Positions 5,787-19,678 of a DNA stretch of 56,539 bases are shown here, piece by piece. How positions within the stretch are numbered: the first letter of the stretch is position 1; the number at the start of each line of letters is the position of its first letter. The notes under the pieces were generated by a model, which was not told where the DNA came from, did no database searches, and saw nothing but the letters and a program-made list of their open reading frames with translations. Both the position numbers and the translations under genes were made by a program. Source of the DNA: an uncultured Marinomonas sp. Lineage in GTDB: Bacteria; Pseudomonadota; Gammaproteobacteria; Pseudomonadales; Marinomonadaceae. The stretch is from contig CALLIL010000027.1 in NCBI GenBank assembly GCA_938009755.1, positions 1 to 56,539 of the forward strand, in the 5' to 3' direction.

Positions 5787-5862
5787 TACCTCGCCTCTTT
5801 TTTATTTTTATTTAAGTAAGCGTAAAACTGAAAACCTTTTCTGGTCTTCAACCATCATTCAT

Positions 5863-14807: not shown

Positions 14808-15242
14808 ATGCCAGAAATGAACCCTGATTCATTAATGAAAGACTTCACTCCTTACGTTGCTAAGGATGACGAAGAATACATGAACGAGAACCAGTTGGCG
14901 CACTTTAAAAGCATTTTGCTTAACTGGAAGCAGAACTTAATGGAAGAAGTTGACCGCACGGTAAATAACCTGAAAGAAGAAGCGGTTAACTACGCAGATC
15001 CAAACGATCGCGCCAGCCAAGAAGAAGAATTTAGCCTAGAATTACGCGCACGTGACCGTGAGCGAAAATTGGTTAAAAAAATCTCTCAGACTATTGAGCT
15101 GATCGATTCAGATGATTACGGCTACTGTGATGAATGCGGTATCGAAATCGGCATTCGCCGCTTGGAAGCTCGACCAACAGCAACCATGTGCATTGACTGC
15201 AAAACCTTAGCTGAAATCAAAGAGCGACAAGTCGGCGGCTAG
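14808..15242 (+). CDS. dksA: RNA polymerase-binding transcription factor DksA
   Basis: DksA inserts a coiled coil into the RNA polymerase secondary channel and, with ppGpp, represses rRNA promoters and activates amino-acid genes. The 144-aa protein has the coiled coil (about residues 28-105) with the essential tip D64-P-N-D67-R-A69, and a complete zinc finger: Cys107, Cys110, Cys128 and Cys131. The start at 14808 has GTGAGG at a good distance; the ATG five bases upstream is out of frame and stops at once. The rRNA promoter at the left edge of this window is a predicted target. Confidence 0.97.
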   Translation: MPEMNPDSLMKDFTPYVAKDDEEYMNENQLAHFKSILLNWKQNLMEEVDRTVNNLKEEAVNYADPNDRASQEEEFSLELRARDRERKLVKKISQTIELIDSDDYGYCDECGIEIGIRRLEARPTATMCIDCKTLAEIKERQVGG

Positions 15243-15289: not shown

Positions 15290-16168
15290 ATGTCGACTCA
15301 TTATCGTGGCCGCTTTGCACCTTCGCCAACCGGCCCTCTCCATTTTGGCTCGCTAGTCAGCGCATTAGCGAGTTATTTGGACGCAAAAAAGCACCACGGT
15401 GACTGGATTGTTCGCATCGAAGATGTGGATGGCACTCGCTGCAAAACACTCTTTTCCGAACAAATCCTCAACACGTTAAACAGTTATCAGCTTTTTTCAG
15501 ATGAAACTGTTCGCGTACAAAGCAACCACACAGAGACCTACGAACACTATTTGTCTATTTTAAAAACACAAGAACGTGTTTTTCCTTGCAACTGCACTCG
15601 ACAATCCTTATCCAAATACCAAGGTTTCCACCCTCATCAATGTAACAGCACAATAAACGAACCTCATTCTTGGCGCTTAAAAGCCAGCGATATCATTTAT
15701 TCGTACCACGACCCAATCCAAGGCAAACTGACGTTTGTTGAGGATTTAAAAAACACGTGCCCGATTTTAAAACGCAAAGACGACTATTTTTCCTATCAGC
15801 TTGCTGTCGTCGTCGACGATCACCAACAATCCATAACCCACCTTGTTAGAGGCGCGGACTTAATCGACACCACAGCACAACAACTCCATCTTTACAGTTT
15901 GTTCGGTTGGAACGCCCCAAACCTTTGCCACATTCCATTAATCACCAACAACATGGGTGAAAAAATCAGCAAGCAAAATCACGCAAAACCTATTATCAAT
16001 GGCGATTTACCTACATTACTGCGCGCTTTGTACTATTTAAAAATTGATTTAGACGCTGTTACCACAATTTCTCAAGCCCTAAATCTCGCCATACAATCTT
16101 GGGAACCCAACAAACTCAAAGGCATTCAACACCTTCGCCTTGAAGAACAAGACCACTACTTTATCTGA
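15290..16168 (+). CDS. gluQ: Glutamyl-Q tRNA(Asp) synthetase
   Basis: GluQ attaches glutamate to the queuosine base of tRNA-Asp. It resembles the catalytic half of GluRS without an anticodon-binding domain; the 292-aa length fits. It has GRFAPSPTGPLHFGS (HIGH equivalent at residues 18-21) and GEKISKQ (KMSKS equivalent). The zinc-binding region shows CNC and a later HPHQC. It follows dksA, as in most Gammaproteobacteria. It depends on queuosine made by the pathway to which queD and queE (26.2-27.2 kb) belong. Confidence 0.95.
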   Translation: MSTHYRGRFAPSPTGPLHFGSLVSALASYLDAKKHHGDWIVRIEDVDGTRCKTLFSEQILNTLNSYQLFSDETVRVQSNHTETYEHYLSILKTQERVFPCNCTRQSLSKYQGFHPHQCNSTINEPHSWRLKASDIIYSYHDPIQGKLTFVEDLKNTCPILKRKDDYFSYQLAVVVDDHQQSITHLVRGADLIDTTAQQLHLYSLFGWNAPNLCHIPLITNNMGEKISKQNHAKPIINGDLPTLLRALYYLKIDLDAVTTISQALNLAIQSWEPNKLKGIQHLRLEEQDHYFI

Positions 16169-16224: not shown

Positions 16225-16253
16225 CGTTACATCAGTTACAAGAGGTGACACTT

Positions 16254-17642
16254 ATGCACAGCGTTATGATCATTTGCCCATTCAACTCCCTTCTTAAAGA
16301 GTCTGAAAAGTGGTTGTCTCGATACGGCTTTCAAATCAACACCTGCGACACGCTAGAACAAGCCAATAAATATTACGAGATCTCCGACTTTGACCTATTG
16401 CTGATCGACCAAGAAAGTATCAATACACTGGATAAGAACAGCACCGCTCTGCCAGAAACACCGCGCCATATTGTCCTAGACGCCAGAGCGAGCTTAAGCA
16501 CAGGCGTCAGCTGCATGGCGCAAGGCGCAATCTATTACCTTCCACTGCCAACCGACTCAGAAACACTACTAAAACATGTCGTAAACGCTTTAGAAGCAAA
16601 TGAACAAACCAGAAACGACAGCACATCTGCGACACCAAACAACGACACACATAACGAGCTCGACTCCATAAAACTGGATGCCCTACAAAGTGAAATCATC
16701 GGTGAATGTCCTGCCATGCTTAGCCTATTCTCGGACATGCAGAAAATTGCCGTTACAGACGCCACAACCCTCATCCGAGGAGAATCCGGAACAGGTAAAG
16801 AACTGGTCGCCAAAGCCATACACAACGCCAGCCTAAGACGACACAATCAAATCGTCAGCATCAACTGCGCAGCCATCCCAGAAAACCTAATAGAATCAGA
16901 GCTCTTCGGTCATGAGAAAGGCGCTTTTACAGGCGCGACAGCAGCCCATGACGGCCTCATAAAAACAGCCGACAAAGGCACTCTTTTCCTTGATGAAATT
17001 GGTGAATTACCGCTCGAAGCGCAAGCGCGATTACTAAGAGTGCTGCAAGAAGGCGAAGTACGTCGAGTCGGTGCCACAGAATACAAGAAAGTCAGCATCA
17101 GGCTCATTGCCGCCACTCACAGAGATCTGTTCGACATGGTTAAAAAGGGAACCTTTCGAGAGGATTTATATTACCGACTGTACGTAATGGAACTTCTATT
17201 ACCACCTCTTAGAGATCGTGGTGACGACATCTCACTAATAGCAGAAGCTTTACTAGAGAAAGCCTGTCGTAAACACAACATGCCGACTTACCATTACAAC
17301 AAAGCGTTCGACAAAGCCATTCGCTCACACAATTGGCCCGGCAATGTAAGGGAGCTAGAAAACGCAATAGAAAGAGCGGTTATCTTAAGCCCTGCAAATA
17401 AAGTAGAAGCAGCAAACCTAAAACTTGCCTCTCAACCCCCAACGCAAAACACCAATACACCGCATAATACGCAAATGGCCACGGGTACCACACTGGACGA
17501 CTACTTAAAACATTTTGTTCTTACGCACCAACACGAGATGACTGAAACCCAGCTTGCACAATCCTTGGGCATATCAAGAAAAAGCTTATGGGAAAGACGA
17601 CAAAAATTAACAATACCTAAAAAGGTAACACCAAACCAGTAA
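16254..17642 (+). CDS. cbrB: CbrB-type sigma-54 activator with degenerate receiver
   Basis: 462 aa, NtrC family. Layout: receiver-like domain (1-115), AAA+ domain with Walker A GESGTGK (176-182), the sigma-54 contact GAFTGA (223-228) and Walker B TLFLDEIGELP, then a Fis-type helix-turn-helix ending GISRKSLWERRQKL. The C-terminus closely resembles the recalled Pseudomonas CbrB end (MTETELARKLGISRKCLWERRQRLGIPRR), and its place between gluQ and pcnB is that of cbrB. Receiver oddities: Asp52 is kept, but the acidic pair is replaced by CPF and the Lys of the KP motif by Leu (LPLPTD). No cbrA kinase is adjacent. The ATG at 16254 follows AGAGG; a GTG at 16245 overlaps that site. It may activate the sigma-54 promoter just downstream. 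Confidence 0.85.
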   Translation: MHSVMIICPFNSLLKESEKWLSRYGFQINTCDTLEQANKYYEISDFDLLLIDQESINTLDKNSTALPETPRHIVLDARASLSTGVSCMAQGAIYYLPLPTDSETLLKHVVNALEANEQTRNDSTSATPNNDTHNELDSIKLDALQSEIIGECPAMLSLFSDMQKIAVTDATTLIRGESGTGKELVAKAIHNASLRRHNQIVSINCAAIPENLIESELFGHEKGAFTGATAAHDGLIKTADKGTLFLDEIGELPLEAQARLLRVLQEGEVRRVGATEYKKVSIRLIAATHRDLFDMVKKGTFREDLYYRLYVMELLLPPLRDRGDDISLIAEALLEKACRKHNMPTYHYNKAFDKAIRSHNWPGNVRELENAIERAVILSPANKVEAANLKLASQPPTQNTNTPHNTQMATGTTLDDYLKHFVLTHQHEMTETQLAQSLGISRKSLWERRQKLTIPKKVTPNQ

Positions 17643-17738
17643 CACTTGATACTAAAATACACAAAACGAAAAACATAAAACGTAAAAAAAGTGCACTAAA
17701 CTTTCTTTAATCTTAATAAAATCAGTAATTTAGTATTT

Positions 17739-17756
17739 TTGGCACAACAAATGCCT
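17739..17756 (+). promoter_or_regulatory. Sigma-54 promoter (-24/-12)
   Basis: TTGGCACAACAAATGCC carries the invariant GG (17741-17742) and GC (17753-17754) separated by exactly 10 bp, with a consensus TGGCAC -24 element. The -12 element is ATGC rather than TTGC. It lies about 100 bp after the sigma-54 activator gene and faces the A-rich RNA candidate; transcription would start near 17766. The AT-rich 90 bp upstream could hold activator sites, but I see no clear CbrB box. Confidence 0.8.
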
Positions 17757-17765
17757 TATACATGG

Positions 17766-18050
17766 CACAACGATAATAAGATTGACGAAAAATAAGAATA
17801 AGTTAGTCGTCGTATGTAAGTTCTTAAAAATAAAAATAAAACATAAGAACACCGTGACCTCTTAAAATAAAAATAAAATTTGAGGTCATGGATGGAAAAT
17901 CGCTTTGGATAATTGATTTTTTTAGATATAAAAGCCCTTAGGGCAATGAAAACAATGCAATAATAAAAATAAAATTTAAGTAGAACTGCAGAAGCAGCAC
18001 TGACTTTGTTTTCGGAACTCGTATCTTCATGTATCCAAAGCGATTATTTT
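17766..18050 (+). ncRNA. CrcZ-like A-rich regulatory RNA candidate
   Basis: No protein gene fits this stretch. Three near-identical A-rich runs sharing ATAAAAATAAAA occur. The first lies in a 17-nt loop closed by a 7-bp perfect stem (17820-17826 with 17844-17850). The second lies in a 20-nt loop closed by a 9-bp stem with one G-U pair (17853-17861 with 17882-17890). The third is inside a domain closed by a perfect 14-bp pairing (17898-17911 with 18032-18045). A fourth, weaker A-rich run lies at 17787-17802. In Pseudomonas, cbrB-crcZ-pcnB has a CbrB/sigma-54-driven RNA with repeated AAnAAnAA motifs that sequester Hfq/Crc. Position, promoter type and motif repetition agree; function is inferred. 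The 3' end may be at T-rich 18046-18054 or at a weak hairpin near 18059-18078. Confidence 0.72.
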
Positions 18051-18211
18051 ATTTACTTAAGGTAAATAACACCTTTTCTCATTGAACATTCCCCTCTCAA
18101 TTTGCAACACAATCTCCACATCAATTGCTTAAAACAAAGCCATTATTCGTGTAAATTCATGACATCACGTGTAGAATGTCTGCCATCGTTAACTTATAAA
18201 TTTGTTGTCTA

Positions 18212-19678
18212 ATGCTTACAGGATTCAAAACTCTGGTACGTAAAGCTACCTCACTGTTTACCTCTCCAGAGGATCAGTCTTACCCTATCGTTATACCTCG
18301 CAATAACCACAGCTTATCTCGACAAAATTTAAGCCCTAATGCGGTTAAGGTTTTATATCGTTTAAATAAAGCAGGTTACGACGCATACCTTGTCGGTGGC
18401 TGTATTCGAGATCACCTTATTGGCGCCAAAACAAAAGACTTTGATGTGGTCACTAATGCCACACCAGAAGAGGTTCACGCGACCTTTTCAAACTCCAGAT
18501 TAATTGGTCGCCGTTTCCGCCTCGTACATGTGACTTTTGGTCGTGAAATTATTGAAGTATCAACGTTCAGAGCAAATTCCGCACAAGACGACAACGACAG
18601 TGTACACAAAGGTCAAACATCCCTGAAAGGCAAAGACTCTGCTCGCTCGACTCACGGCATGTTATTACGCGACAATGTGTATGGCAGTATCGAAGAAGAT
18701 GCGGAACGCCGAGATTTCACCTTTAATGCCTTGTATTACAATGTCCAAGATTTCAGCATTCATGATTATTGCGGTGGTTTAAAAGACATCGAGAACAAAG
18801 TCATTCGAATCATTGGCGACCCTCGCAAGCGTTATCAAGAAGACCCCGTTAGAATGCTTCGCGCCATACGATTTGCAGGCAAGCTGGGGTTTGAAATTGA
18901 TCCAAGCACGGCTGCACCAATCAAAGAAATGGCGCATTTACTGGATCACATTCCACCAGCACGCCTGTTTGAAGAAGTGTTAAAACTCATGGGCAGCGGC
19001 AATGGCATCAAGACCTTTGAACTGTTGCGAGAATATGGTCTATTCCGTTATTTATTTCCAGACACGGAAGCGTTATTAAAAAGTGGTTGGAAACGAGACG
19101 ACATTAATCCTGAAGCGTTTATTCTTCAGGGTTTGCGCAATACAGACAATCGTATTCAAAGCGGTAAAACAACAGCGCCTTATTTTCTCTACGCTGTGTT
19201 ACTTTGGCCAAGTGTGGCATTACGCCATGAAGAGTTTCTTGCGCAAGGTATGCCCGCAACGCCTGCATTACATCAAGCAGCGAGTATGGTGTTAGACAAC
19301 CAAGTCGCATCAACGGCGATTCCTCGTCGATTCTCTACGCCAATGCGTGAGATTTGGGACATGCAATTCCGTCTACCAAAACGCTACGGCAAGCGCGCAT
19401 TTTTATTATTAGAGCACCCACGTTTCCGCGCTGGCTTTGACTTCCTGTTAATTCGCGAAGCAAGTGGCACAGAATTGGGTGGTTTAGGCGATTGGTGGGA
19501 AGCGTTTCAGCATGCTACCGAAGCACAACAACGTGACTTAATCAAAAGCATCGACGCTCGAGCAAGCGACAATAAAGATGGCCCTAAAAAACGTCGTCCA
19601 CGTCGTAGGAAAAGTAACAGCAACAATGCTGCATCCAGCGATATAAAAAATAACGCACCTAGCAGCACGAACAAGTAA
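18212..19678 (+). CDS. pcnB: Poly(A) polymerase I
   Basis: PcnB adds 3' poly(A) tails to RNA and promotes decay. The 488-aa protein belongs to the class II nucleotidyltransferases: GG-C-IRD at 62-67 and catalytic Asp76/Asp78 in KDFDVV. Further family motifs are GRRFRLVHV, RRDFTFNALYY and the RNA/ATP-binding EDPVRMLRAIRFAGKLGF. What marks it as PAP rather than a CCA-adding enzyme is the long C-terminal region ending in an Arg/Lys-rich tail (KKRRPRRRK) and synteny with folK-panBC. The ATG at 18212 precedes a variable leader of about 30 residues; a start closer to HSLSRQNLS cannot be excluded. Confidence 0.95.
   Translation: MLTGFKTLVRKATSLFTSPEDQSYPIVIPRNNHSLSRQNLSPNAVKVLYRLNKAGYDAYLVGGCIRDHLIGAKTKDFDVVTNATPEEVHATFSNSRLIGRRFRLVHVTFGREIIEVSTFRANSAQDDNDSVHKGQTSLKGKDSARSTHGMLLRDNVYGSIEEDAERRDFTFNALYYNVQDFSIHDYCGGLKDIENKVIRIIGDPRKRYQEDPVRMLRAIRFAGKLGFEIDPSTAAPIKEMAHLLDHIPPARLFEEVLKLMGSGNGIKTFELLREYGLFRYLFPDTEALLKSGWKRDDINPEAFILQGLRNTDNRIQSGKTTAPYFLYAVLLWPSVALRHEEFLAQGMPATPALHQAASMVLDNQVASTAIPRRFSTPMREIWDMQFRLPKRYGKRAFLLLEHPRFRAGFDFLLIREASGTELGGLGDWWEAFQHATEAQQRDLIKSIDARASDNKDGPKKRRPRRRKSNSNNAASSDIKNNAPSSTNK

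Follow-up and report, generated by a model that had tools for sequence, protein, structure and literature searches.

The stretch of DNA considered here, the window, comprises 56,539 nucleotides from an uncultured Marinomonas sp. and carries, all on the plus strand and in this order, dksA, gluQ, a gene for a sigma-54 activator, a gap of 569 bp and pcnB. The genes and the features of the gap are as follows:

14808–15242, plus strand: dksA, where the syntenic block begins
15290–16168, plus strand: gluQ (GluQRS), immediately 5′ of the activator gene, with no intervening cbrA
16245–17642, plus strand: CbrB-type sigma-54 activator (EBP), 465 aa, from GTG 16245 (ATG 16254 alternative); degenerate receiver, Sigma54_activat AAA+ domain, weak HTH_8-like end
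17740–17755, plus strand: sigma-54 (-24/-12) promoter TGGCACAACAAATGCC, GG-N10-GC spacing exact
17766–18056, plus strand: predicted CrcZ-like RNA, about 290 nt
17780–17808, plus strand: hairpin 1 (GATTGAC/GTTAGTC), carrying run 1
17788–17802, plus strand: A-R-N run 1 AAAAATAAGAATAAG, in the loop of the 5′ hairpin 1
17820–17850, plus strand: hairpin 2 (GTTCTTA/TAAGAAC), carrying run 2
17826–17840, plus strand: A-R-N run 2, in hairpin 2
17852–17891, plus strand: hairpin 3 (CCGTGACCTC/GAGGTCATGG), carrying run 3
17866–17877, plus strand: A-R-N run 3, in hairpin 3
17898–18045, plus strand: core domain, closed by a long-range helix of 14 bp without mismatch (17898–17911 with 18032–18045)
17915–17929, plus strand: conserved, near-invariant U-rich element GATTTTTTTAGATAT, following the 5′ strand of the core helix
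17959–17973, plus strand: A-R-N run 4 AATAATAAAAATAAA, inside the core domain
17986–17997, plus strand: small hairpin CTGC-AGAA-GCAG (U-A to C-G double change in 1/48)
18043–18056, plus strand: conserved T-rich tract after the long-range helix, the likely 3′ end
18168–18178, plus strand: partly conserved CGTGTAGAATG (Marinomonas consensus), a possible promoter for pcnB itself
18212–19678, plus strand: pcnB, poly(A) polymerase I

An orthologue of the activator was found in all 48 Marinomonas genomes searched, with gluQ lying 58 to 211 bp upstream of it in 48/48 loci, and the position of the gap between a cbrB-type gene and pcnB on the same strand holds in every one of the 48. The protein is an AAA+ sigma-54 activator placed in a dksA-gluQ-(cbrA)-X-pcnB block, as expected of CbrB. 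None of the NCBIfam models shown reaches its cut-off for the window's activator, so the label “CbrB-type” is given on synteny and similarity. A Halalkalibacter match to the activator (38%) was taken to be a sigma-54 activator of general type and discounted.

The preliminary description of this locus proposed a CrcZ-like RNA driven by a -24/-12 promoter with exact GG-N10-GC spacing. The exact pattern TGGCAC-N6-TGC has two matches in the 56.5-kb window, one of them TGGCACAACAAATGCC; with one mismatch allowed there are 15 such sites against 13.5 expected, so the promoter pattern by itself is no proof. What confirms the promoter as real, at the level of sequence, is its conservation across Marinomonas: TGGCAY-N6-TGC lies 90–111 bp past the activator stop in 47 of the 48 genomes and 261 bp after it in the remaining one (L030), the site thus being kept in 48/48. 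A sigma-70-like match inside the RNA was dismissed (one seen, 2.7 expected).

The 5′ end of the predicted RNA was placed by promoter spacing and its 3′ end by the conserved T-rich tract. Conservation is strong from the promoter through the T-rich tract some 290 nt on and then falls, a short CGTGTA-like element being the sole conserved stretch that returns before pcnB. It could be argued that the structured region is instead a 5′ leader of pcnB acting in cis, for example through Hfq-mediated feedback on poly(A) polymerase, with no free sRNA being made: pcnB is on the same strand and begins about 155 nt past the T-rich tract, and no intrinsic terminator was called on the plus strand. We consider this improbable, given the place at which conservation drops, the variation of the activator–pcnB gap in Marinomonas from 503 to 718 bp, as against 321–329 nt for the part that starts just ahead of the promoter and runs to the T-rich tract, and the fact that in Pseudomonas the slot between cbrB and pcnB yields a free RNA, CrcZ (according to the accessible portions of PMC8871633 and PMC4063720).

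Taken as a free RNA, the region has a predicted minimum free energy of -77.9 kcal/mol (z = -8.4; 0/100 shuffles as low), and the fold contains the stems and the 14-bp pairing that had been described, with two of the A-rich runs in hairpin loops and a third in the domain so closed. The covariation check called for in the preliminary description gave support, one measure apart. In the alignment of 48 Marinomonas genomes base pairing is kept in 99.5% of cells, and changes on both sides are found at 11 of 62 pairs in 59 cells, as compared with 14.6 ± 6.4 cells in shuffles that leave the relatedness among genomes in place (0/500 as high) and 0–8 in slid versions; further pair types are no more numerous than in shuffles (31 vs 29.5; 80/500 shuffles). 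Hairpin 3 has double changes at 7 of its 10 pairs within Marinomonas, and hairpin 2, which is misaligned in the 48-genome alignment and was hence counted separately, has a fifth pair that is U-A in 18, U-G in 15 and C-G in 14 of 47 RNAs. Of the 23 pairs of the long-range helix, 17 are invariant inside Marinomonas and so have no covariation support within the genus, while between families the helix is variable. The loops are preserved between stems that covary over 48 genomes, four runs being present in 47/47 RNAs.

A pairing of the U-rich element with the 3′ strand of the core helix, as an alternative to the predicted one, was rejected as far weaker (-7.7 vs -21.8 kcal/mol). Elements like the U-rich one, CTTTTTAGTGG, occur in families f2, f34 and f20. 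To the notion that the gap encodes a small protein or is ordinary AT-rich intergenic DNA we give next to no credence; the sequence is AT-rich and short frames are present in it, but single-base indels separate the species at several positions of the RNA, and neither the compensatory changes nor the z-score of the fold would be expected on that account.

The motif AATAAAAATAAA, whose expected count in the entire window is 0.05, occurs at 17829, 17866 and 17962, the gap thus holding three of the four copies in the window; three copies were attained by 0/1000 shuffles of the RNA region, and each of the 48 Marinomonas loci has at least one exact copy. These are the three A-rich runs of the preliminary description and correspond to runs 2–4, a fourth, at 17788–17802, having been overlooked. 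Its parsing of the runs into A-R-N triplets stands: the window RNA has four runs of at least four triplets (4/1000 shuffles attain four), and exactly four were found in 47/47 Marinomonas RNAs counted, L034 being left out because it was excluded by the script's hairpin pattern. Runs 1–3 sit in hairpin loops and run 4 within the core domain. The suggestion that A/U motifs take the place of CA motifs has to be given up. The consensus is AAnAAnAA, and AAUAAAAAUAAA reads both as an AAnAAnAA run and as an (A-R-N)n run; where CrcZ of Pseudomonas often has C in the runs, the Marinomonas RNA has U.

How the RNA relates to Pseudomonas CrcZ was approached through Rfam and through models of the core. At the gathering score Rfam has no match in the window, where CrcZ (RF01675) scores 8.6 bits, below its membership cut-off of 95; weak matches to SNORA25, mir-81 and mir-276 were rejected as chance. 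The CrcZ model likewise has no match in eight Marinomonas loci searched whole, where a weak match to snR40 was dismissed in the same way. When 293 genomes of the order were searched with this model, 59 had a match at E ≤ 0.001, none of them Marinomonas, and 14 of the 59 are above the cut-off, 11 belonging to f21, a family taken as Pseudomonadaceae by its gene set, and three to f2; in 25 of the 27 such genomes also searched with pcnB, the match sits upstream of that gene, at a distance of up to 1 kb and in the same orientation. These scores favour the expected CrcZ counterpart beyond the pseudomonads, of a kind that a search with Pseudomonas CrcZ would overlook.

A model (R1) built on the core domains of 21 among the 48 Marinomonas loci was searched over 100 loci of the order and gave 11 matches at E ≤ 10 (best E = 0.00039). 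Of these, 10 lie in sense in the activator–pcnB gap, which makes up 6.7% of the search space. The families matched are f37, f2, f38, f20 and f24; none of the four Pseudomonas-type (f21) loci was matched at E ≤ 10. A second model (R2), built from the core of the four f21 loci and of six loci from three other families, has its best window match at 17904–18051 (E = 0.1), and over the 48 Marinomonas loci it gives 39 matches, with a sense core match at E ≤ 10 in 26 loci (25 long, one partial; best 0.0014) and the core missed in the other 22. Five matches lie elsewhere, and eight weaker ones are antisense on the same near-palindromic core, so part of the R2 score is symmetry. The core duplex is predicted in 11/11 CrcZ-side sequences, with hand-chosen strands, and in 10 aligned CrcZ-side cores 89% of cells pair (0/500 shuffles as high), with nine double-change cells (1/500 shuffles) and three double-change pairs, the latter the same as in shuffles (335/500). 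Homology between Marinomonas and Pseudomonas would appear to run through intermediate families. In view of the R1 and R2 core matches and the 8.6-bit Rfam score, the RNA is called a homologue that has diverged and does not reach the curated cut-off.

For the distribution over the order, we chose 100 genomes out of the 144 in which pcnB was matched, covering 42 of 47 families. A locus counted as testable when its gap exceeds 150 bp and follows a CbrB-like activator scoring 200 bits or more, which left 80 loci in 36 families; the remaining 20 have no activator at this threshold or too small a gap, some being cut by a contig end. TGGCAY-N6-YGC is present in 72 of the 80 gaps, with 0.6 expected from shuffles, and at least three A-R-N runs in 66, with 4.65 expected; the two are found together at 63 loci in 28 families, and the 17 loci without one or both belong to f7, f9, f13, f18, f23, f31, f35, f40, f41, f43 and f46. 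A system special to Marinomonas, or merely analogous to that of the pseudomonads, is not what this spread describes. At L158, L160 (f9) and L161 (f18) an activator stands before pcnB with a short gap that holds no A-R-N runs, and the RNA may have been lost or changed there. Long gaps with two sigma-54-like sites and many AAnAAnAA runs are seen at L085, L086, L126 (f38), L127 (f14), L124 (f12), L102 (f37) and L111 (f29), an arrangement that resembles a tandem of two CrcZ-like RNAs.

In the accessible parts of the sources, a review gives CbrAB/crcZ as unique to Pseudomonadaceae (PMC8871633), CbrAB is termed exclusive to pseudomonads (PMC6296734), a metatranscriptome study names CbrA/CbrB (PMC5073097) and CrcZ is mentioned only as an example (PMC5955585). 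Among the papers listed, with subscription papers mostly outside reach, no title or opening of an abstract describes a CrcZ outside Pseudomonadaceae, and earlier reports are possible; no paper was found that pairs CrcZ with Marinomonas or with Cellvibrio.

No CbrA-like gene was found in the 48 Marinomonas loci, and the receiver of the activator has changed as well. None of the 48 activators has both acidic receiver residues (two show one, and one row is gapped there), Asp stands for Thr and Leu for Lys in all 48, and the phospho-Asp is retained in 47; for the window's activator, Pfam Response_reg scores 17.7 bits against a cut-off of 30.2. The set of a phosphorylatable CbrB receiver (acidic pair, Asp, Thr/Ser and Lys) is thus incomplete in the Marinomonas protein. 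Of 82 activators aligned from the order, the 71 with an adjacent CbrA-like gene all retain the acidic pair, Asp, Thr and Lys, and 10 of the 11 without one have lost the receiver set, the single exception being an f41 activator with an intact receiver. Among the cbrA-less activators, Glu replaces Asp in 3/5 of f13, both of f15 and 1/2 of f46 (loci L139, L140, L149, L135, L142 and L143), and other receiver losses are found in the remaining f13, f39 and f46 rows (two f46 rows are partly gapped). Glu in place of the phospho-accepting Asp often serves as a phosphomimic.

A Pseudomonas-type CbrA query has matches at E ≤ 1e-20 in 47/48 Marinomonas genomes and none in the window's own, incomplete genome. 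Those listed lie elsewhere than the activator locus and are all partial; the best of them show about 30% identity over the SSF part, in proteins mostly near 1150 aa, with an open frame of 979 aa in G023 (CbrA has 983) and one of 466 aa in G027. One of these genomes, G033, encodes at L302:441-3899, on the minus strand, a 1152-aa SSF-domain hybrid histidine kinase with a receiver-like end, and proteins matching it are present in the other complete Marinomonas genomes. It resembles CrbS, a hybrid kinase type with a receiver-like end (as described in the accessible part of PMC5715377), and not CbrA; a CrbS-like kinase of this sort is conceivable as an alternative input.

The absence of CbrA together with a degenerate receiver is, as far as the alignments indicate, what is distinctive of Marinomonas, and it went unremarked in the preliminary description; this loss and the apparently order-wide module are what the present analysis adds. 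The predicted decoy has, in this genus, outlived its kinase, with cbrA gone and the receiver degenerate in 48/48. We lean, with some reserve, towards a history in which the CbrB-sigma-54-CrcZ-pcnB module is ancestral to the order, and several lineages, including Marinomonas, lost CbrA, their CbrB (now with a degenerate or an Asp-to-Glu receiver) becoming independent of phosphorylation, and kept the decoy, so that an unchanged Hfq/Crc output would answer to a different signal.

The partners that such a decoy would need had been marked for checking, and both are there: Hfq is encoded in 48/48 Marinomonas genomes, as is an orthologue of Crc. In the window's genome Crc has 258 aa and its best PDB match is P. 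aeruginosa Crc (E = 5.5e-78), and the gene is divergent from a pyrE-like neighbour (named by eye), the same arrangement as in a Pseudomonas-type genome.

A decoy RNA would be expected to share its motif with the ribosome-binding sites of catabolic genes. The decoy motif AAYAAAAAYAAA was compared with a register-breaking control, AAYAAAAYAAAA, the reversed motif having been rejected as a control because it contains the motif itself, and a target was defined as a sense start region that has a Shine-Dalgarno sequence and belongs to an open reading frame of 90 aa or more. In G033, a complete genome, AAYAAAAAYAAA has 46 matches, and with the two inside the RNA excluded 17 of 44 are at start regions, 13 of them upstream, as compared with 4 of 30 control matches (30 of 31 examined), one upstream. 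In G040 the motif is at start regions in 12 of 30 matches (30 of 49 examined), 10 upstream, and the control in 5 of 30 (30 of 34 examined), all five upstream; two of these five overlap before one gene and one is beside a true motif. Starts on the opposite strand were seen at 4/44 and 2/30 motif matches, respectively. Pooling gives 29/74 vs 9/60 for start regions (Fisher p = 0.0016) and 23/74 vs 6/60 for upstream positions only (p = 0.0025), values that are too good because the two target sets share orthologues (at least 5 of the 12 G040 target genes, by eye). For G033 alone, p = 0.016 for start regions and 0.0037 for upstream positions only; for G040 alone, p = 0.042 for start regions, and the upstream-only comparison is not significant (10/30 vs 5/30, p = 0.12).

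Pfam (1e-8) names 24 of the 29 target products, the other five having no match, and these are 12 uptake proteins and 12 catabolic-type enzymes, with no regulator. The former include the solute-binding proteins SBP_bac_1, Peripla_BP_4 and DctP as well as MFS_2, BCCT, SCFA_trans and GntP; the latter are four aldehyde dehydrogenases, an acyl-CoA dehydrogenase, a tannase/feruloyl esterase, an enzyme of vanillate demethylase type, a zinc alcohol dehydrogenase, two short-chain dehydrogenases, PhyH and an alpha-amylase. The eight distinct control genes comprise four regulators, three uptake proteins (one of which adjoins a true motif) and one FMN dehydrogenase. A 254-aa target gene with no Pfam match, isomerase-like by eye, is found in 10/48 Marinomonas genomes at 1e-40, and in all 10 an AAnAAnAA run touches its Shine-Dalgarno sequence, in surroundings that are partly different.

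The window's own genome (78% complete, 2.5 Mb) gave 0/27 in the motif-at-start test and no match to the 254-aa gene; the former could, as a guess, reflect few such target genes in it. At 5801–5812 of the window, on the minus strand, AATAAAAATAAA stands directly before AAGAGGCGAGGTAATG of a csp-like (cold-shock-protein-like) gene, by eye; in the genome of the window itself, this gene is a candidate for control by Hfq/Crc. The same genome contains stretches made almost exclusively of A, C and G, such as AACAAGAACAAGAACAA, in L295, L296, L299 and L212 (C88, C91, C108 and C20), which look like assembly or low-complexity oddities.

The target genes bear also on whether the RNA might be an Hfq-dependent sRNA that base-pairs with its targets, the A-rich loops merely loading Hfq. 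Such a role could explain the near-invariant U-rich element at 17915–17929 and the core, which exceed the seeming needs of a pure decoy, but it fits poorly with stems that covary around loops that are kept, and the motif at catabolic start regions is what competition for Hfq would lead one to expect; we regard base pairing as very improbable.

The reading that we hold with high confidence is that the gap encodes a CrcZ-type decoy RNA for Hfq/Crc, a diverged and shortened homologue of Pseudomonas CrcZ. It is directly supported by the conserved promoter, fold and motifs, by the partner genes and by the motif at candidate targets in relatives. We infer that in Marinomonas the RNA is transcribed, binds Hfq/Crc and titrates them, and that the activator is switched without CbrA. 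The CbrB-type activator and sigma-54 RNA polymerase would transcribe the RNA from the -24/-12 site, and the loops of the abundant RNA would take Hfq (with Crc) off A-R-N leaders; in mRNAs for catabolism and transport, the A-R-N runs by the ribosome-binding site would be freed and translation would resume, the outcome being relief of catabolite repression. If the module is order-wide, many bacteria use Hfq/Crc catabolite repression together with a decoy RNA as a general strategy, much of which the Rfam CrcZ model overlooks. The kinase-less version makes decoy RNA control after loss of the sensor testable, and the motif at start regions supplies a first, checkable list of Marinomonas targets.

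Among known systems, the CbrA-CbrB pair shares with the Marinomonas activator its CbrB architecture and synteny, the identity to the activators of the four Pseudomonas-type (f21) loci being 47–48%; the Marinomonas loci differ in having no CbrA-like gene and a receiver without acidic pair, Thr and Lys. RsmY/RsmZ-type sRNAs bind CsrA/RsmA via GGA loops and differ in this target from the Marinomonas RNA, whose A-R-N runs fit the distal face of Hfq. They are alike in titrating a translational repressor through repeats of a protein-binding motif (accessible part of PMC4063720). The closest likeness is to CrcZ/CrcY/CrcX of Pseudomonas and Azotobacter (RF01675), which occupy the same slot from a CbrB-type activator to pcnB and share the -24/-12 promoter, the repeated (A-R-N)n runs and the long-range core helix, with Hfq and Crc encoded likewise and the motif at catabolic start regions in relatives. 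According to the accessible part of PMC4063720, P. aeruginosa CrcZ is an RNA of 407 nt with six A-R-N runs that binds the distal face of Hfq and titrates it in vitro; the Marinomonas RNA has a predicted length of about 290 nt and four runs. Relative to CrcZ it is without the part after the core, falls below the Rfam cut-off, and stands beside an activator with a degenerate receiver and no neighbouring cbrA.
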